Shown: positions 34,396 through 42,127 of the stretch, piece after piece
Numbering within the stretch: position 1 is the first letter of the stretch
Layout: each line of letters begins with the position of its first letter
Source: Gluconobacter sp. P1C6_b
Lineage (GTDB): Bacteria; Pseudomonadota; Alphaproteobacteria; Acetobacterales; Acetobacteraceae
NCBI RefSeq assembly: GCF_018811945.1
Contig: NZ_JACRVU010000025.1
Coordinates: forward strand, 1-42,127
Length of the DNA stretch: 42,127 nt
Direction of reading: 5' to 3'
Position numbers and translations under genes: made by a program
Notes under the pieces: generated by a model
Seen by the model: the letters and a program-made list of their open reading frames with translations, nothing else
Database searches by the model: none
What the model was told of the DNA's origin: nothing

Positions 34396-35361
34396 TTATT
34401 CGCTTTGGTCACTTCCTGAGACAGGCTGAGTTTGTGCCGAAAAAGAAACCGGATTTTGTGGAACGTCGTTAACGCGCAGACTGAAAATGTCGGGACGGGC
34501 ATAATGACCTGCAACATCCAAGTCATATTTTGCCCGGATAATATCTTCCAGATCGATATCGGCTGCCAAAATCGCTTCACGGTCATAAACCGGTCCTGCG
34601 ATGATCTCTCCCAACGGGCTGACAATAATGCTGCCTCCCCGGATAAAAACCGTTTCGGGATTATTTCCTTGATGACACGCGTAGTTTTCCGGGGCGTCAG
34701 CACGCGTCATGAACTGACAGGCGCTCAAAACGAAAGTTCGACCTTCATAAGCAATATGACGCATGGAAGCCTGCCAGATATCACGCTCGTCCACCGTGGG
34801 CGCGCACCAAAGGTTGATCCCCCGCGCATACATGCTCTGACGGAGATCCGGCATATAGTTTTCCCAGCAAATCGCAGCACCAAGGCGTCCAATCTCGGTA
34901 TTGAAAACCGGAATGGTGGACCCATCTCCCTGTCCCCAGACCAAACGCTCGGTACCCGTCGGCATTAACTTGCGATGCTTGCCCAAAAGCGCTCCATCAG
35001 GCCCAAAAAAAAGTGCCGTGCAGTAGAGGGTTGCACCATCCCGCTCGATCACCCCAACGACTAGGTATGCTGTCATTCTCTGGGCAAAAGACCCGATCCG
35101 CTCTGTTTCAAGGCCCGGAACCACAATGGCTGACTTCCAGTACCGCAGATAATCATCCCGTCCTTCAGGAAAACGGCTTCCCAAAACGGCACCAAAGGCT
35201 AGTCCTTTAGGGTATCCGCCAATATAGGCCTCCGGAAAAACTGCCAAATCAATACCTTGCATGGCAGCAGCCTCGCAGTGCGCTTCCATGCGATCAAGAG
35301 TTGCAGGCGTATCAAACAGGCTACTTCCGGCCTGAATAACGGCAACACGCAGCTTGTTCAT
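34396..35361 (-). CDS. Nitrilase (carbon-nitrogen hydrolase)
   Basis: 321 aa, the usual length for true nitrilases. The ATG at 35361 follows GGGAG at nine bases; a TTG two codons earlier is the alternative. The catalytic triad is visible: E44 in FPEAYIGGYPKG, K131 in KHRKLMPTGTERLVWGQGDG and C165 in AAICWENYMP. The CWENYMP signature points to aliphatic/aryl nitrilases (nitrile to acid plus ammonia) rather than amidases. It stands alone between the polysaccharide locus and the tRNA remnant. It is the last gene before the presumed island and probably belongs to the chromosome backbone. Confidence 0.92.
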   Translation of the reverse strand: MNKLRVAVIQAGSSLFDTPATLDRMEAHCEAAAMQGIDLAVFPEAYIGGYPKGLAFGAVLGSRFPEGRDDYLRYWKSAIVVPGLETERIGSFAQRMTAYLVVGVIERDGATLYCTALFFGPDGALLGKHRKLMPTGTERLVWGQGDGSTIPVFNTEIGRLGAAICWENYMPDLRQSMYARGINLWCAPTVDERDIWQASMRHIAYEGRTFVLSACQFMTRADAPENYACHQGNNPETVFIRGGSIIVSPLGEIIAGPVYDREAILAADIDLEDIIRAKYDLDVAGHYARPDIFSLRVNDVPQNPVSFSAQTQPVSGSDQSE

Positions 35362-35530
35362 ACACAATTCTCCCGGATATTCAGCACGGTTCAGTCCTGA
35401 CGAATAACTTGCTCCCTACAGGAACGAGAGCATACGTAGTGTAATTTTCCTATCCGAACTGTCAGATCCCAAAGCGACGAAGCAAATCCGCTATTCTGCT
35501 TCTTCCCCAGGCGCCCCCAACGCAACAAAA

Positions 35531-35563
35531 AAACCCCGCTAAGCCGTTGACTTAGCGGGGTTT
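35531..35563 (-). terminator. Intrinsic terminator of the former tRNA gene
   Basis: AAACCCCGCTAAG and CTTAGCGGGGTTT form a perfect 13-bp stem with a 7-base loop. On the minus strand it runs into TTTTTTT, the standard form behind tRNA genes, and it lies 13 bases downstream (minus sense) of the tRNA 3' end at 35577. It would also close weakly in the plus direction. Confidence 0.85.
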
Positions 35564-35576
35564 CAGAAACTGCAAG

Positions 35577-35595
35577 TGGTTGCGGGGGCAGGATT
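35577..35595 (-). other. Probable attachment site: 3' end of a tRNA (initiator tRNA-Met type)
   Basis: On the minus strand the bases read AATCCTGCCCCCGCAACCA. This corresponds to the T-loop end, the 3' T-stem (CCTGC), the acceptor strand (CCCCGCA) and CCA of alphaproteobacterial initiator tRNA-Met. The bases on the 5' side (35596 onward) cannot complete any tRNA. A tRNA 3' end alone, with its own terminator still behind it, is the displaced half left when an integrative element enters a tRNA gene. The intact tRNA should lie at the far end of the element, beyond the right edge of the window. Another tRNA with the same 3' end cannot be excluded. Confidence 0.7.
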
Positions 35596-35823
35596 GCTTC
35601 TCAAATTGCGACAATCGCAAGGTGAGAATAAAGCGGGTTTAGATAATTGTTTTGAAAAGATTTTTTCTGCGCTCGCTTGATCTTTCCCCAATCATAGCGC
35701 CTCCTATCTCCTAGGAGTAGGACAACTCCCATTCAACGCCATGACCGTTGTCGCGAACTGATCCCAACGGTTCAGATCGGTTCGTATCCACCACCCTCTC
35801 GTTCGTACGTCCGCTTTAGGCGA
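35596..35823. other. Left edge of the presumed island, no gene seen
   Basis: About 230 bases without a credible ORF. CTCCTA-TCTCC-TAGGAG forms a small hairpin near 35701-35717, and there are repeated GGTTC motifs around 35768-35785. No integrase gene is here, which fits the integrase sitting at the other end of the element next to the rebuilt tRNA. Confidence 0.4.
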
Positions 35824-36210
35824 TCACCAAAGACGATTGACGGCGAAGTTATCAAACAAAGCCTCGTTGGAGATCAGCGTCATACCCTCGGCCTGCGCCT
35901 GGGCAATCAGGAAACGGTCAAACGGGTCTTTATGAGTAATGTTCATCTCGCCCGCGATGCGAGCATGAGTAACGCTGATTGGCAGCTCAATAAACTCCTG
36001 CCCAGCAACAATAGCCTCAAAATCCTGCGCCAGCAGGGCCGCCCCCGGCAGTTTACCGATGCGGAACTTGGTTGCGATCTCCATAGCCGACGCTGCGCTC
36101 ACGGCTATGACATTATCTTCATCCGCTATGGCTTCCTGGGCGCGACGACTTAAATGTTCGTCGCCCGCCAGCCACCAGATCAACGCATGTGTATCAAGCA
36201 GTAGCCTCAA
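35824..36210 (-). CDS. vapC: PIN-domain ribonuclease toxin (VapC family)
   Basis: 128 aa from a TTG at 36210, giving the family-typical start MRLLLDTHALIWWL; a GTG at 36222 would add four residues. Acidic PIN residues are in LLDTHA, SAMEIATK and HKDPFDRFLIAQA, followed by LISNEALFDNF. VapC toxins cleave tRNA or rRNA until neutralised by the antitoxin. The TTG overlaps the antitoxin stop as TTGA, so translation is coupled. Typical cargo of mobile DNA that stabilises the island. Confidence 0.88.
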   Translation of the reverse strand: MRLLLDTHALIWWLAGDEHLSRRAQEAIADEDNVIAVSAASAMEIATKFRIGKLPGAALLAQDFEAIVAGQEFIELPISVTHARIAGEMNITHKDPFDRFLIAQAQAEGMTLISNEALFDNFAVNRLW

Positions 36211-36440
36211 GCGAGATTCCACCCGTCCAGTTCGTCGTCGGGCAGTGTCTCATTGAAGGTCTTATCCAGGGTGATCTTGCCTTTAAGCGCCCCAAACACG
36301 CGACGACCCTGCGGTTCCACCGGCACAAGGCGCACGACGGGTACAGAACCACGCGCAATCACCACATCACCACCCGCAAGCGCTTCGGCAATCAGGCGAG
36401 ACAGGTTGGTTTTGGCATCGTGAACCGAAAACTGGGCCAT
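36207..36440 (-). CDS. Phd/YefM-type antitoxin
   Basis: 77 aa: MAQFSVHDAKTNLSRLIAEAL is the Phd-family DNA-binding N-terminus, GGDVVIARGSVPVVRLVPV completes the domain, and the acidic C-terminus (PDDELDGWNLA) would wrap the toxin. The ATG at 36440 follows AAGGAG at eight bases. It should repress its own promoter through the palindrome at 36451-36472. Confidence 0.9.
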   Translation of the reverse strand: MAQFSVHDAKTNLSRLIAEALAGGDVVIARGSVPVVRLVPVEPQGRRVFGALKGKITLDKTFNETLPDDELDGWNLA

Positions 36441-36450
36441 GAGATATCTC

Positions 36451-36489
36451 CTTAGCTAACTATATAGCTAAGACACCTTCCGTCGGCAA
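36451..36489 (-). promoter_or_regulatory. Promoter and palindromic operator of the toxin-antitoxin operon
   Basis: On the minus strand TTGCCG (36484-36489), 17 bases, TATATA (36461-36466) forms a near-consensus sigma-70 promoter. CTTAGCTA (36451-36458) and TAGCTAAG (36465-36472) are perfect 8-bp inverted arms flanking the -10 box, and the downstream arm runs into the AAGGAG ribosome binding site. Antitoxin bound here would block RNA polymerase directly, the usual autoregulation of such operons. Confidence 0.75.
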
Positions 36490-36646
36490 GAGTCGTCTTC
36501 CATTCTGACCACGTTATTACGCGCCTTCGTCCGTTGGAGACCCGTAATCCAGGCGAATACAATTAAGATAAAGCTACCATCCGAATGCTCCGAATCTCCC
36601 TCTATCCAATTCACCAATTCCCTCCCATAAGTCCTGCGCCGGACAA

Positions 36647-37303
36647 TTATGGCTCCGTATCCGTTGTACTGGCTAAAACATTTCGGAAGGGAGTCAAACG
36701 CTCCGCTAGATAGAGACGGTGCATCCGCCGCAATTCGTCAGGCGCGCCTGGCGTCGTGGGCGCGTCCTTCGCCAGCATGCCGCGCAACACTTTCATAGTG
36801 TTTAGAACGACCGCAGCAATATCTCTCGATAGTGCGTCCTCCAACCCTGGCGCACAGACACGCAACGCTGCAGCAATTCCGACTATGGCATGTCCCCGTG
36901 CACGTTCGCGGATCTCCATGCTGTCAGTCCGTGCCTCCATCAGAGCAGACAGGGATTTCACACGAGGATGAAGCGTGACAAGCAGTTCGATGAGAACGTC
37001 CGCCAGAGCGTCCGGCGAGAGCATGGCTGCACGTTTGGCGAGTGCCGCGTATTCGTCTTCCAGAACAGCGATATGCCGCTTCACCAAAGCGTCCGCCACA
37101 GCCTCCTTGTTCGGAAAGAAGCGATAGAGCGAGCCGATCTTCGCCGCCGCGCGCGCGGCGATCTCCGCCATGGTTGTCGCCTCGTACCCTCGTTCCGCCA
37201 TGAGGTCGGACGCGGCCTCCAGTAACTCCTCGACGCGCTGACGCCCAGCCGCGCGCATCGGCTGAAGAGACGTCCGTTTACCTCTTGACGAACTTGAGTC
37301 CAT
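36647..37303 (-). CDS. TetR/AcrR-family transcriptional regulator
   Basis: 218 aa from ATG 37303 (a TTG at 37309 adds two residues). The N-terminal HTH is clear: RVEELLEAASDLMAERGYEATTMAEIAARAAAKIGSLYRFFPNKEAVADAL split across the usual three helices. The C-terminal part is an all-helical ligand domain with an AARALRVCAPGLEDAL-type helix region. It is divergent from the hydrolase-MFS pair and faces a palindrome at 37323-37338, so it most likely represses both itself and the efflux operon until a ligand binds. Confidence 0.9.
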   Translation of the reverse strand: MDSSSSRGKRTSLQPMRAAGRQRVEELLEAASDLMAERGYEATTMAEIAARAAAKIGSLYRFFPNKEAVADALVKRHIAVLEDEYAALAKRAAMLSPDALADVLIELLVTLHPRVKSLSALMEARTDSMEIRERARGHAIVGIAAALRVCAPGLEDALSRDIAAVVLNTMKVLRGMLAKDAPTTPGAPDELRRMHRLYLAERLTPFRNVLASTTDTEP

Positions 37304-37322
37304 AATCAAATAATGCTCCTGC

Positions 37323-37338
37323 TTGAGTGTATACTCAA
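37323..37338. promoter_or_regulatory. Candidate TetR operator
   Basis: TTGAGT-GTAT-ACTCAA is an inverted repeat with 6-bp arms, 20 bases upstream of the regulator's ATG and 74 bases before the hydrolase ATG. Size, symmetry and position in a divergent region fit a TetR-family operator. Confidence 0.7.
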
Positions 37339-37411
37339 CTTACTAACGTTTCCGCGTGTTCCGGACAACAGTTCGGGATGGCCGTCGAACGTCAACAGGG
37401 AAGGTCTTGCC

Positions 37412-37978
37412 ATGATTTCACTCCCAGCCACCAGGACGGCCCTCGTCCTGATCGATCTCCAGAAGGGCATCACGGGGCTTCCCCTGGCTCCGACACCGGG
37501 GGCTGCGATTGTTGAGCGATCGAAAGAGCTTGCAACGCGTTTTCGGGCTGCCGGCGCACCGGTCATTCTGGTAAACGTTGCGTTCGCGCCAGATTTCGCC
37601 GATGCTGTGCATTCGGTCGTCGATCGCTCCTTTTCGCCGCCTGGCGGCCTCGCGCCGGACTGGGCCGAACTGGTTGACGGACTTGCCGAACCGACCGATC
37701 TGCGCGTCACGAAACGGCAATGGGGTGCCTTCTACGGCACGGATCTCGACCTTCAGTTGCGGCGGCGTGGCATCACCACCATCGTGCTCGGCGGAATCGC
37801 CACCAATCTGGGTGTGGAATCCACCGCCCGGGCGGCGCATGAGCATGGATATAATGTCGTGCTTGCAGACGATCTCATGTCCACCTTCACGGACGAGATG
37901 CAGCGCTTTGCCTGCGAGGAGATTTTTCCTCGCCTCGGCCGTGTGACGACGAGCGAAGCGATCACGCTGGATGCGTAA
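37412..37978 (+). CDS. Isochorismatase-like hydrolase
   Basis: 188 aa from ATG 37412, preceded by GGGAAGG; the longer frame from 37313 runs through the operator and is rejected. Conserved D15 in LVLIDLQKG and K101 in VTKRQWGAFYGT are present. The usual nucleophile position reads GGIATNLGVESTAR, with Gly at 134 where Cys stands in cysteine-hydrolase members. So it may be an isochorismatase-type enzyme that does not use a Cys nucleophile, or non-hydrolytic. Under TetR control with an efflux pump, it may inactivate or process the same compound the pump exports (inference). Confidence 0.85.
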   Translation: MISLPATRTALVLIDLQKGITGLPLAPTPGAAIVERSKELATRFRAAGAPVILVNVAFAPDFADAVHSVVDRSFSPPGGLAPDWAELVDGLAEPTDLRVTKRQWGAFYGTDLDLQLRRRGITTIVLGGIATNLGVESTARAAHEHGYNVVLADDLMSTFTDEMQRFACEEIFPRLGRVTTSEAITLDA

Positions 37979-38026
37979 ACGCATGGCGGATGTCTGCGCG
38001 TCTCGCGGTTCCCGGCGAGATCATTC

Positions 38027-39445
38027 ATGAACGCCGGAACGTCGTCGCCAGCCTCAGGCCCGGATCAACTGCCTTCAGGTACATGGAAAATCGTGAGCGT
38101 CGCGGCGATCGGATCTTTCATGGCGCAACTGGACGCCACGATCGTCAATGTGTCGCTCCCCGATCTCGTCGCGACCCTGCACGCGCCTTTTTCACACATT
38201 CAGTGGGTGGTCAGCGGCTATTTGCTGGCGCTCGCCCTGACGTTGCCGCTGAATGGATGGCTCGTGAGTCGCCTCGGGGGGCGAGCGGTCTATTTATGGT
38301 GCTTCGGTGCCTTCACGCTGACATCAGGCCTGTGCGCGCTGGCGTGGTCTGCGCTGTCCCTAATCGTATTCCGTCTGCTGCAAGGCATGGCGGGCGGCCT
38401 GCTTGCCCCTATGGCGCAGATGACGGTTGCCCGTGTGGCGGGCCGTCAGATGCCGAGGGTCGCGAGCGCGATGACGGCGCCTGTTCTGCTCGCGCCGCTT
38501 CTTGGACCCGTCGTCGCCGGTGCCATTCTCTCCATCGCGTCTTGGCGATGGATCTTTCTTCTCAATGTGCCGGTCGGGCTTGCGGCTTTTGCCCTTGCCG
38601 TTCTGTTTCTCCCTGACGATCGGCATGACGAGCGCCCCCGTCCACTTGACCTGACAGGGCTAGGATTTCTCGCGCCCGCTCTCGTCTCGTTTCTCTACGG
38701 CATGGATCATGTCGCCCGGCCTTATGGACAGGCGACGTTGGGTGCGTCCATCGGGCTGTTCGTCCTGTATGTTCGATCCGCGCGATGCAAGGGCGCTGAC
38801 GCGCTGATCGACCTGCGCCTGCTGCGTGCACCCACCTTTTCGGTGTCGGCGATCATCATGTTTCTGACGAACGGGGTGTCGTTCGCGGGTCAGATGCTTC
38901 TGCCGGTATGGCTGATCCACGCCTGCGGTGTCTCGCCCGAGCGGACAGGCCTGTTCATGGCACCCCTGGGTCTGGGGATGATGTGCGTCTATCCGTTCAT
39001 TGGCCGTCTGAGCGAGCGGTTTGACGCACGCGACTTGACTGGTTGCGGGGCTCTTTTGTCCTTTGTCGGAACAGTGATCTTGATGATGCTCGCCTATAGC
39101 GGCCTAAACGTTGCCCTGCTGACCATAGCATTGTTATTGCGTGGCGGCGGCGGGGGGGCCGTCGGCATTCCGGCAATGAGCGCGGGATACGCTTCGATCG
39201 CCCGCGAGGATATCCCGATGGCGACGACCGCGCTGAACATCATGCAAAGGATTGGCGGGCCGACATTGATTACAGCATGCGCCACATTCCTTGGGTGGCA
39301 GCTTGCGACGGTCGGCCCGTCCCATGCCGGGTCGGAAGCTTATGCCGAAACATTTGCATTGCTCGCGTTATTCCATGGCACTCTGTTGCTCGCCACGCGT
39401 TTTATCAAGCCTTCGGAAAAGAAACGCCGGTTCGGACCGAACTGA
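38027..39445 (+). CDS. MFS drug efflux transporter, DHA2 (EmrB/QacA) type
   Basis: 472 aa with about 13-14 hydrophobic segments. Motif features of the DHA2 family are visible: FMAQLDATIVNVSLPDL in helix 1, WVVSGYLLALALTLPLNGWL, RLGGRAVYLW (motif A), and VLLAPLLGPVVAGAI (motif C). It should export hydrophobic drugs or metabolites using the proton gradient. It follows the hydrolase by 48 bases in the same orientation and is probably cotranscribed under the TetR regulator. Somewhat different in codon texture from the polysaccharide genes, as expected for island cargo. Confidence 0.92.
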   Translation: MNAGTSSPASGPDQLPSGTWKIVSVAAIGSFMAQLDATIVNVSLPDLVATLHAPFSHIQWVVSGYLLALALTLPLNGWLVSRLGGRAVYLWCFGAFTLTSGLCALAWSALSLIVFRLLQGMAGGLLAPMAQMTVARVAGRQMPRVASAMTAPVLLAPLLGPVVAGAILSIASWRWIFLLNVPVGLAAFALAVLFLPDDRHDERPRPLDLTGLGFLAPALVSFLYGMDHVARPYGQATLGASIGLFVLYVRSARCKGADALIDLRLLRAPTFSVSAIIMFLTNGVSFAGQMLLPVWLIHACGVSPERTGLFMAPLGLGMMCVYPFIGRLSERFDARDLTGCGALLSFVGTVILMMLAYSGLNVALLTIALLLRGGGGGAVGIPAMSAGYASIAREDIPMATTALNIMQRIGGPTLITACATFLGWQLATVGPSHAGSEAYAETFALLALFHGTLLLATRFIKPSEKKRRFGPN

Positions 39446-39467
39446 AACTATCGGGCATTGATACTCA

Positions 39468-39492
39468 CCTGAGTGAATAAAAGTCACTCAGG
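39468..39492 (+). terminator. Hairpin after the MFS gene
   Basis: CCTGAGTGA (39468-39476) and TCACTCAGG (39484-39492) form a perfect 9-bp stem with a 7-base ATAAAAG loop, 22 bases after the MFS stop. No T tract follows. It could be a terminator or an IS-end remnant, since transposase debris begins directly after it. Confidence 0.5.
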
Positions 39493-39496
39493 CAAG

Positions 39497-39646
39497 CTTG
39501 AGCGCGTCGGTAATCTGAAAGCAAGGACGCGACGGATTGCCATCATGGCCATGGCGAGAAAGCTCCTGATTGCGTTGTGGCGCTATGTGGAGGCTGGACC
39601 GATGCCGGAGGGTCTCGCATTCGGCACGGGAACGACCGCGGGATAG
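39497..39646 (+). pseudogene. IS110-family transposase, C-terminal fragment
   Basis: The frame LERVGNLKARTRRIAIMAM then ARKLLIALWRYVEAGPMPEG to TAG at 39644-39646 matches the C-terminus of IS110/IS1111-type transposases, where RIAIxAxARKLLIALWRY is a recurrent phrase. Only about 50 residues remain. No start or catalytic DEDD domain is present, so this is a relic. Confidence 0.7.
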
Positions 39647-39744
39647 ATAGACAGAATTGCCGCGGGCCGATCAGTCGCTGGCTGCGATACGGGGAACGCG
39701 ACCGTCTTCTTCTTTGGTTGCGCTGTGCTACCGCGTTTCAGCCA

Positions 39745-39943
39745 TCCCGCGCGCCCGAACTGAACCCGGTTGATAATGGCTGGCAGTTCCTACGCGCCAA
39801 CTGGCTGTTCGATACCGTCTTCGACGGTATCCGGGCATATCATCTATGCTGCCAGACCAGCCTGGAACAATCTCACTGCCGTGCCGGGGACCATCCGATC
39901 CATCCGTCTCACAACGTGGGCTTACATAGGTGCGTCTCTATAA
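39745..39943 (+). pseudogene. IS630-family transposase, C-terminal fragment with frameshift
   Basis: APELNPVDNGWQFLRANWL followed by FDTVFDG matches the conserved SPELNPVENxWxxLR end of IS630-family DDE transposases, in which the Glu (here Asp) is catalytic. The rest of the C-terminus continues in the next frame as IIYAARPAWNNLTAVPGTIR then TTWAYIGASL and TAA at 39941-39943. One base has been lost or gained near 39840. Together with the adjoining IS110 fragment it shows repeated insertion and decay at this spot. Confidence 0.75.
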
Positions 39944-39977
39944 TCTTTGGCATTAACGGCGTCCTACACAAAAGAAT

Positions 39978-40292
39978 TCACCAGCGCCGCCACCAGCCTC
40001 TTCGCCAGATGTAGCCGCGCGGAGTCCAGAACCAGCGGCCCGGCTCCCAGACATAGCCTCGGCGTGGCAAGGGCACCATTTCGTAGGGTGGCACCGATGG
40101 TGGGGGGCGAATGATCGTGATGGGAGGCGGTGTAATCACGACAGGCGGAGGTGGCGGCGCGACCACGACTGGTGGTGGAACGACAACTGGTGGTCCAGCA
40201 TAAATCCACGGCCTGGCCTCCGCCGGAGCCGCACTCAGCATGGTCGCGGCGAAAGCCACGGCCAGAAACTTCCATCTGACGCTATCAGGCAT
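39978..40292 (-). CDS. Secreted proline-rich YXWGXW-type protein
   Basis: 104 aa. Signal peptide MPDSVRWKFLAVAFAATMLS with cleavage after AEA. A central proline/valine-rich stretch (PPVVVPPPVVVAPPPPPVVI) follows, then a tail rich in aromatic and basic residues (RGYVWEPGRWFWTPRGYIW), similar to YXWGXW repeat proteins of the periplasm or cell surface. Function unknown; small proteins of this kind occur near stress genes in Proteobacteria. The ATG at 40292 is preceded by a weak site. It is transcribed away from hsp20. Confidence 0.7.
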   Translation of the reverse strand: MPDSVRWKFLAVAFAATMLSAAPAEARPWIYAGPPVVVPPPVVVAPPPPPVVITPPPITIIRPPPSVPPYEMVPLPRRGYVWEPGRWFWTPRGYIWRRGWWRRW

Positions 40293-40443
40293 TGTTCTGG
40301 TCCACTCTGAACACGCGATGATGCTTTATAGCATGATGCTCGTGAAATGGGCATCGGTCCGTCTCACTCGCGAAGACGCGCAGGCAATGAAGACGCGAAC
40401 GATAGAGGACGCCCAAACCTGCCCTTCTGCATTTTTGATGCCT

Positions 40444-40472
40444 CTTGACACCATGCATGGAGTTCCCAGATT
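40444..40472 (+). promoter_or_regulatory. Heat-shock (RpoH-like) promoter candidate for hsp20
   Basis: CTTGAC at 40444-40449, 15 bases, CCCAGATT at 40465-40472. This resembles the sigma-32 pattern (CTTGAA ... CCCCATNT). The predicted transcript start would fall near 40478, exactly where the first hairpin of the thermometer leader begins. That agreement of two independent signals raises confidence. Confidence 0.55.
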
Positions 40473-40477
40473 GAATT

Positions 40478-40553
40478 TGCCGACCGCCGAAGGGGTCGGC
40501 AGACAGAACTATCAGTTTTGATCTTGTGTCCATGTTGCTCAAAGGAGGATATG
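40478..40553 (+). ncRNA. ROSE-type RNA thermometer in the hsp20 leader
   Basis: Three stem-loops can be drawn. First: TGCCGACC (40478-40485) with GGTCGGCA (40494-40501). Second: GACA (40502-40505) with TGTC (40527-40530), enclosing ATCA/TGAT. Third: 40531-40540 pairs with 40545-40553, hiding the AAGGAGG ribosome binding site. In the third, TTGCT (40535-40539) faces AGGA with G40537 left bulged, which is the defining feature of ROSE elements before alphaproteobacterial small heat-shock genes. Heat would melt this weak stem and free the site. The pairing was drawn by hand, not computed. Confidence 0.75.
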
Positions 40554-40556
40554 GCT

Positions 40557-41039
40557 ATGAGAGCCACCGTTGATTTTGCTCCCCTGTTCCGTTCGAGCGT
40601 GGGCTTTGACAGAATGCTCAATGCCCTTGATCTCGCCGGTCGAATTCCGACGGCCGATAACTGGCCACCTTACGATATCATCAAGACCGGTGAGGATGAT
40701 TACCGCATCGACATGGCGGTTGCCGGACTTGCCGAGAACGACCTAGCGATCACCCAGGAGCGCAATACTCTTGTCGTGACAGGACGAAAGGCACCGGAGC
40801 CGCAAAGCGCCGCCGAATATCTCCATCGGGGTATTGCGGGCAGAGAATTCGAACGCCGCTTCGATCTGGCCGAGCATATGAAAGTCACCGATGCGCACTT
40901 CGAGAACGGACTTCTGTCCATTACCCTGAAACGTGAGATACCCGAAGCGATGAAGCCGCGTCGTATCGCGATTACGTCCTCTACGACACGCGCGGAGGAA
41001 GCCGTGCCCCAGATCGAGGCGCGGAAAGAGGCAGCCTGA
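40557..41039 (+). CDS. Small heat shock protein Hsp20 (IbpA type)
   Basis: 160 aa starting at the second ATG of ATGGCTATG (40557), which is eight bases after AAGGAGG; the first ATG is only two bases from it. MRATVDFAPLFRSSVGFDRML matches the class A IbpA N-terminus. The alpha-crystallin domain follows (YDIIKTGEDDYRIDMAVAGL, LVVTGRK, FERRFDLAEHMKVTDAHFENGLLSITL), and a C-terminal RRIAI stands for the IxI/V motif. It is an ATP-independent holdase that keeps unfolding proteins soluble in heat. It is controlled by a thermometer leader and ends at a very GC-rich hairpin. As island cargo it may be a second, transferred copy. Confidence 0.94.
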   Translation: MRATVDFAPLFRSSVGFDRMLNALDLAGRIPTADNWPPYDIIKTGEDDYRIDMAVAGLAENDLAITQERNTLVVTGRKAPEPQSAAEYLHRGIAGREFERRFDLAEHMKVTDAHFENGLLSITLKREIPEAMKPRRIAITSSTTRAEEAVPQIEARKEAA

Positions 41040-41053
41040 TGGCGTGACGAAAC

Positions 41054-41087
41054 CTCTCCCCCGGCCATTCATCCGGCCGGGGGAGAG
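41054..41087 (+). terminator. GC-rich hairpin after hsp20
   Basis: CTCTCCCCCGGCC (41054-41066) and GGCCGGGGGAGAG (41075-41087) form a perfect 13-bp stem with an 8-base loop, 15 bases after the stop. No T run follows, so the next gene might still receive read-through. Confidence 0.7.
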
Positions 41088-41105
41088 TCTCGAAAGGTCA
41101 TGAGC

Positions 41106-41456
41106 ATGAAGAGGATGAAAATATTTCTGCCGTGCGCTGCTCTGGGCTTGTCTCTACTGGGCCAGTCGGACGCACATGCTGCTGATCTTGCACGGGCGGC
41201 TGCAACATCGTTCGATGCGAGGGCGACTGAGGGAACGTCCACAATCCCCAAAACCGGAGCTCGCGCTCATTACGAAGACGGCACAGGTGATATGCTGGTC
41301 GACAGCTTGAACGCAAGCCAGTTGGATCAGAATTACAAGGGGCCGGTCTATTATCCCGGACAACCCATTCCGCCGTTCCGGCCCATCGACACAGATCATC
41401 TGGCGCCGTCAGGGCCAGAGACGACGAAGAACACGCCCTCATCGCACGGGACGTAA
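41106..41456 (+). CDS. Small secreted protein of unknown function
   Basis: 116 aa from ATG 41106, eight bases after AAAGG (an ATG at 41100 is too close to it). Signal peptide MKRMKIFLPCAALGLSLLG with cleavage after AHA or AA near residue 26. The mature part is hydrophilic, with TGARAHYEDGTGDMLVDSLN, QNYKGPVYYPGQPIPPF and a Ser/Thr-rich tail, and shows no domain I recognise. It lies between hsp20 and a psiE-like gene in the presumed island, so an envelope stress role is possible but unproven. Confidence 0.65.
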   Translation: MKRMKIFLPCAALGLSLLGQSDAHAADLARAAATSFDARATEGTSTIPKTGARAHYEDGTGDMLVDSLNASQLDQNYKGPVYYPGQPIPPFRPIDTDHLAPSGPETTKNTPSSHGT

Positions 41457-41505
41457 TGGGGCTTTGAGTAAAGGCGGCGTTAGAGACCGCCTTTACCTCG
41501 ATTCT

Positions 41506-42063
41506 TCAGGATGAAGACCGTTCAGGCTCACAGCGGGCCGCAGGATTATCTTCGAGAGGCGCCTGTTCCCTGGCGTCGCGCGCGACACGCGCATCCTGCT
41601 CGCGAACCAGCCAGTAGACGATGCCCAGAGCCAGAACAGCCGCCGAGAGAGCGAACAGTTCCACGGCAGTCACATCATGCAGATCCAGCAGGATGAATTT
41701 GCGGGCAATCGCCAGGAGAGCGATCAGGACGATGGTCCGCACCCGGATGACGTTCTCATGCTGGGCAAGAACGACCAGCAGGGAGTGTTTGAACTCAAGA
41801 GCGATGATAACAGTAAAGATCGCGCCGAAAATCGCCTGGAAGATCGTCTGGTTAATCGGATCGATTCCGACATCGACGACCAGATGCCATACCGCGCCGA
41901 TCAGATGAATCGTCGCGATGGCGGTGACCAGCATGATGAGCGCAATCAGGGTCAGAATGATCGCCTGTTCAAAACGCTCGTAGAATGTCAGGCCCCTGAA
42001 CAGCTTGATGAGGCGGGACCAGTCCCTGCTCTGCCAGGAACGTTTCATGGAGCGGTCTTCCAT
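41506..42063 (-). CDS. psiE: PsiE-family membrane protein
   Basis: 185 aa from ATG 42063, with GGGA nine bases upstream; a GTG at 42102 would add 13 residues. Four hydrophobic segments (AIILTLIALIMLVTAIATIHLIG, QTIFQAIFGAIFTVIIALEF, VRTIVLIALLAIARKFILLDL, VELFALSAAVLALGIVYWLV) and the LEFKHSLL and ARKFILLD phrases match phosphate-starvation-inducible PsiE. The biochemical role is unknown. psiE homologues travel on heat-resistance islands together with Hsp20. The charged C-terminal tail (REQDARVARDAREQAPLED) is longer than in E. coli PsiE. Confidence 0.87.
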   Translation of the reverse strand: MEDRSMKRSWQSRDWSRLIKLFRGLTFYERFEQAIILTLIALIMLVTAIATIHLIGAVWHLVVDVGIDPINQTIFQAIFGAIFTVIIALEFKHSLLVVLAQHENVIRVRTIVLIALLAIARKFILLDLHDVTAVELFALSAAVLALGIVYWLVREQDARVARDAREQAPLEDNPAARCEPERSSS

Positions 42064-42127
42064 AGCCGTTTTCCCATCTATTAATTGCGTTATAGTTCCC
42101 ACGTCCTGGGTCTGGTTTTTCTTTTAG

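Follow-up and report, generated by a model that had tools for sequence, protein, structure and literature searches.

How does the 3′ end of an initiator tRNA come to stand on a bacterial chromosome without the tRNA to which it belongs? The question is raised by a window of 42,127 nucleotides (the whole stretch of DNA analysed here), which is the complete contig C18 of a Gluconobacter draft genome; position 42127 is therefore an assembly end.

The tRNA end at 35577-35595 and its flanks

Positions 35577-35595 (minus strand) are exactly the last 19 nt of tRNA-fMet, as the first-pass annotation had recognised, and match the end of the intact tRNA-Met(CAT) gene located on another contig (C15:173-249). 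The 5′ part of the tRNA is absent, again as annotated, and ARAGORN reported no tRNA in the window. The annotated terminator was also found as a hairpin with a T run (about 35531..35564, minus strand), which we regard as an intrinsic terminator that belonged to the target tRNA/rRNA operon and has been separated from its tRNA; a stretch 97% similar to this region is located after an intact tRNA-fMet in genome G004. With at most one mismatch the 19-mer occurs in two places in the genome (3.39 Mb, 78 contigs), the window and C15:231-249. The 12-mer CCCCCGCAACCA gave four matches, and its reversed control none. Two of the four are these same places, and the other two (C15:43910 and the edge of contig C3) comprise 12-14 nt of tRNA end adjoining or near integrase sequence. 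These counts rule out a chance match.

The target tRNA gene is flanked downstream, on the chromosome, by a nitrilase-family gene (34396..35367, minus strand; name read from the sequence). In G. potus R-71646 a gene with 96% amino acid identity to it adjoins an intact tRNA-fMet, and the DNA of positions 34396-35595 is 89% identical there. This is an empty site of the kind that the annotation had proposed to look for in relatives. It was seen in one genome (G013:C36 and L003 appear to be one record of this strain), on a contig that begins 33 bp upstream of the tRNA. A complete tRNA with the same end in our genome and an intact site in a relative bear out the earlier proposal that an element is integrated in an initiator-type tRNA gene, with the fragment as its distal end.

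On the other side of the fragment, positions 35596..35620 (minus strand) carry the far-end half of the element attP (the type a arm), which pairs with type A integrase-side ends. Its motif is common to three junctions, the one in the window and two in G022, with different downstream sequence at each. The arm opens a conserved terminal segment of what we call element A (35596..36518, no strand assigned), which is 92% similar to G022:C80 (923 bp) and, together with the tRNA fragment, 93% similar to G050 over 942 bp. A repeat search within 35500-42127 returned short weak families only.

Cargo, contig joins and the probable tandem layout

The sequence to the right had been described as typical cargo, and for the most part this holds. 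It encodes a PIN-domain (VapC-like) toxin (35824..36222, minus; PF01850) with a Phd/YefM-family antitoxin (36207..36440, minus; PF02604), a TetR-family regulator (36647..37309, minus; PF00440), an isochorismatase-family hydrolase (37313..37978, plus; PF00857), an MFS transporter (38027..39445, plus; PF07690), an Hsp20 small heat-shock protein (40560..41039, plus; PF00011) and a PsiE-family membrane protein (41506..42102, minus; PF06146). Cargo modules occur elsewhere in the genus too.

The last 249 bp of the window (41879..42127, plus strand) overlap the end of contig C10 with full sequence identity, and the element continues there with domains of TraG, TrbE, TrbL, TrbG and TrbI, a TrbB-like ATPase and a relaxase. 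An integrase, a relaxase, a coupling protein and at least part of a T4SS are thus encoded on the element, and element A appears to be a Trb-type ICE terminating in the window. Up to about 33 kb C10 is largely collinear with G062 and G050 at 81-91%; past 33 kb, C10 and most of the window cargo have no counterpart in the compared stretches of these genomes, except for a 194-bp match in G062. The window end segment is absent from the type A element of both, and in G050 it matches only another, smaller stretch (123-143 kb).

A reading of the fragment as the degraded remnant of a duplicated tRNA or rRNA operon, with no integrated element, is barely conceivable. Its shortness and the presence of cargo modules elsewhere in the genus would fit, but one element end borders this tRNA 3′ end at three separate junctions, the site is intact in G. 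potus, and the continuation holds conjugation genes and a split integrase gene.

The complete tRNA-fMet with the same 19 bases, which the first-pass annotation had suggested looking for, is the one on C15, where it starts 53 bp behind a 5S rRNA. A complete tRNA at one end and an identical 3′ fragment at the other are therefore both present in the genome, on two contigs whose connection we infer. The gene beside this tRNA encodes a large serine recombinase (LSR) and reads into the tRNA; the annotation had anticipated a tyrosine recombinase, which is ruled out for this gene. The LSR (LSR1) has Resolvase, Recombinase and zinc-ribbon domains and is assigned to a second element, element B, which looks mobilizable. 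The LSR of element A was assembled in two parts, an N-terminal one with the Resolvase domain and a C-terminal one without a Pfam match. In G062 and in G050 the right edge of C15 and the left edge of C10 both match a single unbroken LSR gene, 1005 bp apart in each genome, so that C15 and C10 are probably neighbours with roughly 1 kb missing between them. The link was drawn from homology and not from reads or scaffolds.

A single island beside the tRNA is ruled out, and a tandem array favoured, because the type A integrase end at the right edge of C15 follows the far end of element B. The contig overlap, the split integrase gene and the two collinear relatives give as the most likely order 5S, tRNA-fMet, the 43.7-kb element B, element A with its length of about 61.5 kb, terminator and nitrilase. 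The island described as running off the right edge does end in the window as proposed, and is most likely part of two tandem elements of about 105 kb, in which it is element B that encodes the integrase next to the rebuilt tRNA.

Alternatively, the element on C18 and C10 and that on C15 could lie in different rRNA operons, the window-side tRNA having been lost in assembly and the right edge of C15 being another type A integrase copy. The rRNA copies are probably collapsed in the draft, since only one 5S-tRNA copy was assembled, and an extra tRNA-fMet end lies at the C3 edge. We nevertheless consider this arrangement improbable: the two contig edges are complementary parts of a type A LSR, the gap between them is identical in both relatives, and the only other LSR matches in the genome are LSR1 and a fragment on C3 (residues 337-458). 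The argument that insertion here would be notable because the initiator tRNA is essential is weakened by its position behind an rRNA operon and by the four near-complete tRNA-fMet copies of the related genome G021 (by sequence match; ARAGORN was run on one of the four), yet this assembly has a single copy.

Serine integrases and the symmetry of the attachment site

In many genomes an LSR gene adjoins tRNA-fMet, with its reading frame entering the tRNA. Among 65 LSRs examined, 36 have a tRNA-antisense ending and another eight run off their contig. A terminator after the tRNA was detected at 16 of 24 integrase ends (hand-chosen, partly related sites) and in 9 of 264 control windows, which rules out a terminator at every integrase end; the same scan in this genome gave none at the LSR1 end and one at the LSR2 end.

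The attP appears to be an imperfect inverted repeat that has as its centre a single GG where T-stem and acceptor meet. Over 17 hand-listed element-end pairs (the next same-oriented site on the contig, with one pair spanning the origin of a genome assembled as one contig, and the window pair) the mean symmetry was 18.6/32 at the proposed centre, as compared with 6.5-11.1 at 16 other offsets, a sharp centre of the form expected for an LSR attP, i.e. inverted half-sites around a 2-bp core. In G050, element starts were resolved where they carry the exact 12-mer. The symmetry centre places the central GG of the recombination at 35587..35588 (plus strand), in our reading tRNA nt 66/65 in standard numbering; 35577-35587 would then be chromosomal, and the sequence from 35588 onward would belong to the element.

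Symmetry follows the type of the ends. Same-type combinations (n=61) gave a mean of 19.1 (range 12-24) and different-type combinations (n=228) one of 12.6 (range 5-19), with types B and D, and C and F, lumped; when the 17 pairs were set aside, all 272 remaining combinations of these ends, some of them of one type, gave a mean of 13.7 and a maximum of 24. The window end scored 14, 14 and 17 with the three type A ends and 5-10 with the other 14, its own attP arms (14/32) being less symmetric than those of 14 of the 17 pairs. The same-contig pair G086 2791600 to 2765122 scored 13 because its two ends differ in type, and was retained among the 17. Types h and d2 had no contiguous pair among them and were assigned by sequence: h ends scored 18-22 against type H integrase ends (n=3) and 10-17 against ends of other types (n=7), and d2 ends scored 18-21 against type D, 17-20 against H and 10-17 against the remainder.

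Insertion by a tyrosine recombinase encoded elsewhere on the element is very unlikely. Most tRNA-targeting integrases are of the tyrosine type (PMC4383910), and our LSR assignment covers the gene beside the tRNA. Against it stand the many LSRs that abut and read into tRNA-fMet, the attP halves inverted about a 2-bp centre, and the correspondence between LSR-side and far-end types.

Very probably, then, the window ends in an ICE, element A, whose LSR recombined the GG of the rRNA-linked tRNA-fMet, with element B likely between it and the tRNA, and whose attP, lying within the 3′ end of the LSR gene, swaps the integrase C-terminus. In the proposed course of events the integrase side of the element would supply the final 11 or so nt of the tRNA, by which the tRNA is rebuilt there, and the old tRNA 3′ end and terminator would be left at the far end, in the window. 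The leftover site would be open to repeat insertion.

The integrase reading frame through the site, and known systems

At 26 of 27 chosen sites the LSR frame stays open across the site, always in the same phase. Since the 3′ end of the LSR gene contains attP, recombination would exchange the C-terminus, which would be read from the tRNA antisense at an intact tRNA, from the element's own tail in the excised circle, and from the neighbour's tail in a tandem array. Integrated at an intact tRNA, the frame ends in ..VAG-AGFEPAAFRL (end GFEPAAFRL). The window carries an orphan coding tail, AGLLLKLRQSQGENKAGLDNCFEKIFSALA followed by a stop (35588..35680, plus strand), an open frame that continues ..VAG and shows codon-position constraint in its group; it would join the integrase in frame only in the predicted excised circle.

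Element-encoded tails are 14-30 residues long in the four tail groups studied. Variable bases at the three codon positions numbered 33/19/64, and the third-position count was reached by 0 of 20000 shuffles, for groups made by eye in gapless alignment. The test omitted the tails of types e, g and x as well as L113, whose sequence diverges after 16 codons; taken by itself, the c tail group was not significant (1267 of 20000 shuffles).

The frame through attP might be an incidental result of a long integrase gene that overlaps its site, and the tails functionless. Any gene entering its own attP gains variable tails, and several tail types have no C-terminal motif in common. On the other hand, the groups keep their tail length, most variation falls at third codon positions, and variation per column is higher past the stop; the stop codons vary in spelling and mostly hold their place (in one group, 3 of 10 tails end two codons earlier). 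We therefore think the by-product reading unlikely. Since the frame runs through the site and the tails are under codon constraint, a state-dependent integrase tail is likely; the tails would have to be expressed, and could act on stability or activity.

One tail lineage showed an ssrA-like ending ([LIVAM][AVT]A) in 16 of 20 far ends. It was found in 0 of 27 ends of types a (7), c (12), e (3), x (3) and g (2), the tail in the window included, and in 0 of 11 further non-tRNA tails (L220, L221, L222, L228, L236, L346, L349, L350, L351, L354, L361), which rules out the idea that every element carries a degron. The LAA- and AA-ending reads of L173 and L301 lend no support, because in both the recombinase is on the far-end side, pointing at the site; they were set aside. 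The 11 negative tails and the loss of these two make the degron reading less probable. As a hypothesis for some element types only, the integrase of the circle could gain a C-terminal degron (e.g. ..RLAA, ..RLVA, ..RIAA) and integration swap in the tRNA antisense, so that protein lifetime would report the integration state, and the inner integrase of a tandem would take its neighbour's tail, coupling the elements; we regard this as possible, if rather doubtful.

Serine integrases are valued tools, and tRNA sites have, to our knowledge, long been held to be tyrosine-integrase territory. An alphaproteobacterial LSR family whose tRNA target is fixed and multi-copy contributes new integrase/site pairs, and it would account for tandem cargo build-up behind rRNA operons in acetic acid bacteria, and the attP-split coding tail poses a testable question: does an element sense its own integration via the integrase C-terminus? 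In a literature search of partial coverage we recognised no report of serine integrases at tRNA-fMet, nor of an integrase tail changed by integration, and priority is not claimed for either.

The element shares TraG, Trb mating-pair genes and a MobA/VirD2-like relaxase with Trb-type ICEs of Proteobacteria, and differs from them in the LSR at the tRNA end. Reports on tyrosine-integrase islands and ICEs in tRNA genes describe insertion at the tRNA 3′ part, a tRNA rebuilt at one end, a fragment at the other, and tandem arrays (PMC4383910, PMC8627217). Islander-class islands and the tRNA-Met ICEs of Mesorhizobium resemble the present elements in these respects, whereas the recombinase here is a large serine recombinase; the Mesorhizobium study lists serine recombinases in 6 of 79 elements. 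Serine recombinases with a tRNA target, called rare, are described for phiRSM1 of Ralstonia (tRNA-Ser) and for Mycobacterium AICEs (tRNA-Leu) (PMC3218068); here the target is tRNA-fMet behind an rRNA operon, in other hosts, with several element types and tandem arrays. A parallel to the split reading frame is the integration-dependent immunity of BPs-type mycobacteriophages, in which attP lies inside a coding gene, integration removes an ssrA-like C-terminal tag, and the site overlaps a tRNA (PMC9262239, PMC9934374). In BPs, attP cuts the repressor gene and the integrase is of the tyrosine type, whereas here attP cuts the LSR gene itself and the integrated tail is tRNA antisense.

A tRNA-fMet fragment and a probable tandem of elements behind it

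Window positions 35577-35595 are the exact last 19 nt of tRNA-fMet on the minus strand, with an intrinsic terminator next and the tRNA body absent, as the first-pass annotation had described. In the draft assembly of which the window is contig C18 (78 contigs, 3.39 Mb), the 19-mer recurs once at <=1 mismatch, at C15:231-249. There it ends a tRNA-Met(CAT) gene (C15:173-249) located 3' of a 5S rRNA gene (C15:5-119), and this is most likely the complete tRNA-fMet that the annotation had expected beyond the window, reached across a contig join, C15-C10, that we infer. The 12-mer CCCCCGCAACCA has four sites in the genome versus none for the reversed control; at the remaining two, C15:43910 and the C3 edge, 12-14 nt from the end of the tRNA adjoin integrase sequence or lie near it. 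At the C3 contig edge (C3:1-531, L214) the last tRNA-fMet bases precede a decayed fragment of a large serine recombinase (LSR), marking another occupied site in the genome.

The annotation had also looked to relatives for an uninterrupted site, and Gluconobacter potus R-71646 provides one (one genome, one flank): its 4698-bp contig has tRNA-Met at 34-110 and a nitrilase gene at 276-1241. The contig starts 33 bp upstream of the tRNA, and only the nitrilase-side flank is visible. The window's nitrilase gene (34396-35367; named by reading of the sequence) is 96% identical to the G. potus gene, a relatedness that places the window's genome in Gluconobacter. In the genus search, contig C36 of G013 was 89% identical to window 34396-35595; this is apparently the same record as R-71646, and the two were tallied as one genome.

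The window's final 249 bp are the end of C10 in reverse, and the element therefore runs on into C10 (53,976 bp). This contig encodes TraG, TrbE, TrbL, TrbG, TrbI, a TrbB-like ATPase, a relaxase with DUF3363, RecD2 and a cytosine methylase, and at the left edge it holds an LSR's N-terminal Resolvase part. C15 reads 5S, tRNA-fMet, LSR1 directed at the tRNA (Resolvase, Recombinase and zinc ribbon domains), followed by a TrwC relaxase, type I restriction genes and genes for Fic and NMT1-family proteins. Its right end holds a 14-nt tRNA fragment, after which comes the C-terminal portion of another LSR. A tyrosine recombinase had been predicted beside the tRNA; the enzyme there, LSR1, is a large serine recombinase instead.

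A single unbroken element in G062 (contig C12) and G050 aligns to the C15 right edge (91% and 89%), continues in both for 1005 bp without counterpart in the window genome's contigs, and then matches C10:1 to ~33 kb in 81-91% blocks. Since the C15 right edge and the C10 left edge lie 1005 bp apart within that unbroken element, we regard them as pieces of one type A LSR gene (LSR2). C10 past 33 kb and the window cargo had no match in the G062 and G050 stretches compared, except 194 bp in G062. By summing the pieces, element B spans 43.7 kb (C15:250-43,909). Element A, which ends in the window, comes to ~61.5 kb (0.25 + ~1.0 + 53.98 + 6.29 kb), and the two would lie in tandem, ~105 kb summed. The insertion is real and well-supported.

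Element B (L083-L085) resembles a mobilizable element, with its TrwC relaxase, type I restriction and Fic genes, and also carries apparent nitrate-assimilation genes (nitrate reductase labeled by ORF reading). Within the window, the Hsp20 - small ORF - PsiE module (40388-42127) is found whole or partial at ~94-96% identity in six other Gluconobacter genomes, and may resemble part of a transmissible stress-tolerance locus. The TetR-isochorismatase-MFS module (36639-39508) has a second copy (89%) at C7:2159-5029, ~2.5 kb from a nitrilase paralog (C7:7512-8434).

Serine integrases at tRNA-fMet and their attachment site

The window insertion is one of a wide family of serine-integrase elements at tRNA-fMet. 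With the window's genome counted throughout, LSR1 relatives occur in 17/26 Gluconobacter genomes. A family sample of 150 genomes had them in 107 at E <= 0.001, many of these relatives being distant, and a class sample of 289 had them in 17 at E <= 1e-100. We examined 65 LSR loci matched over 450 residues or more, drawn from the best loci of the genus, family and class searches: 36 end in tRNA-antisense residues (one, L356, antisense to another tRNA-Met type), 8 run off the contig and 21 end otherwise. Of 55 LSR loci scanned with ARAGORN, 24 gave a tRNA-Met and one a tRNA-Thr; the other 30 gave no tRNA, and several of these are interrupted by a contig end or lie within arrays.

The tRNA-Thr(CGT) lies at the 3' end of the LSR relative L357, and the family may therefore use other tRNAs. 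L345, L352 and L353, LSRs from other alphaproteobacterial families, have a tRNA-antisense tail and no whole tRNA by ARAGORN; their tRNA sequence halts near the anticodon. Two serine recombinases, L173 (G012:C28:11428-13064) and L301 (G050:C1:2457609-2459260), are directed at a tRNA 3' fragment from its far-end side, the reverse of the other elements' layout.

The window's element end (TTGCGATTGTCGCAATTTGAGAAGC, then the tRNA fragment) is present at two further junctions in G022, with different post-CCA sequence each time; contig C156 of that genome holds a fourth motif match, with 2 mismatches.

For attP, we compared 17 hand-listed pairs of integrase-side and far ends, 16 on one contig (one across the origin) plus the window pair. 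Joined as attP, the ends form imperfect inverted repeats. Their centre is single and sharp and falls between G 4 and G 5 of the G run in TGGTTGCGGGGG; we number it as tRNA nt 66/65. Symmetry at this centre averaged 18.6 of 32 positions versus 6.5-11.1 at 16 other offsets, and 13.7 (maximum 24) in the 272 other combinations of the same ends, same-type ones included. By type, the 61 same-type combinations averaged 19.1 (12-24) and the 228 different-type ones 12.6 (5-19); the window far end scored 14, 14 and 17 against the three type A integrase ends, its scores with the other 14 being 5-10. The integrase side contributes the tRNA's final ~11 nt, with the CCA among them. Terminator-like hairpins lay within 95 nt past the CCA on that side at 16/24 chosen sites, against 9/264 control windows within integrase genes; a replacement terminator is often supplied by elements of this kind.

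An integrase tail that probably changes on integration

At 26 of 27 chosen integrase-side sites the LSR frame crosses the site open and always in the same phase, the exception being a fragment; three of the 26 cover <100 residues and some are closely related. At an intact tRNA, in the integrated state, the frame's last residues are AGFEPAAFRL or closely similar. In the excised circle it would pass on into the far end: in the window the predicted tail (35588-35680, open-frame reading) is AGLLLKLRQSQGENKAGLDNCFEKIFSALA, then stop. In this genome LSR2 reads element B's far end, giving AHNQCSLHLVSGFVKKLTA and a stop.

Codon positions were compared for bases >27 nt from the crossover in four tail groups (36 distinct sequences). 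Variable bases at positions 1/2/3 numbered 33/19/64, and none of 20000 shuffles reached 64; by group, the observed count was reached in 36 (h), 1 (b/d/d2), 243 (a) and 1267 (c) of 20000. Per-column variation was greater past the stop in every tail group (alignment without gaps). We read this as selection on a translated tail; group c, taken by itself, lacks the signal. In L168 and L169 (type D LSRs), an internal VAGTCNRRKLRSAGKEQATLVAG stretch resembles an older attP and tail now within coding sequence, as though the end had since gained a new site.

Among the 20 far ends belonging to types b, d, d2 and h, 16 have an [LIVAM][AVT]A ending, compared with 0.96% for random-frame ends (n = 40,484) and 2.3% for long ORFs (n = 435); the host tmRNA tag ends LAVAA. 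Such ssrA-like endings were absent from the 7 far ends of type a, to which the window belongs, from those of types c (12), e (3), x (3) and g (2), and from 11 further non-tRNA tails. We hypothesize a degron for part of the family only, because the 20 sites seem to form a single homologous lineage, integrases were matched to types h and d2 by sequence rather than contiguity, and the other types do not fit.

Comparison with known systems

Most surprising here is the proposed tail exchange, which can be tested. In the literature searched, an incomplete collection, we recognised no report of tRNA-fMet serine integrases with an integration-changed tail. A 2011 paper describes serine recombinases at tRNA genes as rare and names phiRSM1 (tRNA-Ser) and Mycobacterium AICEs (tRNA-Leu) (PMC3218068). 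Mesorhizobium ICEs have tRNA-Met among the sites used and tyrosine recombinases in 73/79 elements (PMC8627217), and elements in Sinorhizobium tRNA genes carry tyrosine integrases, one of mixed similarity (PMC11476347). Mycobacteriophage serine integrases are treated in a 2022 review (PMC9262239), and in mycobacteriophage repressors an ssrA-like tag is lost on integration (PMC9262239, PMC9934374).
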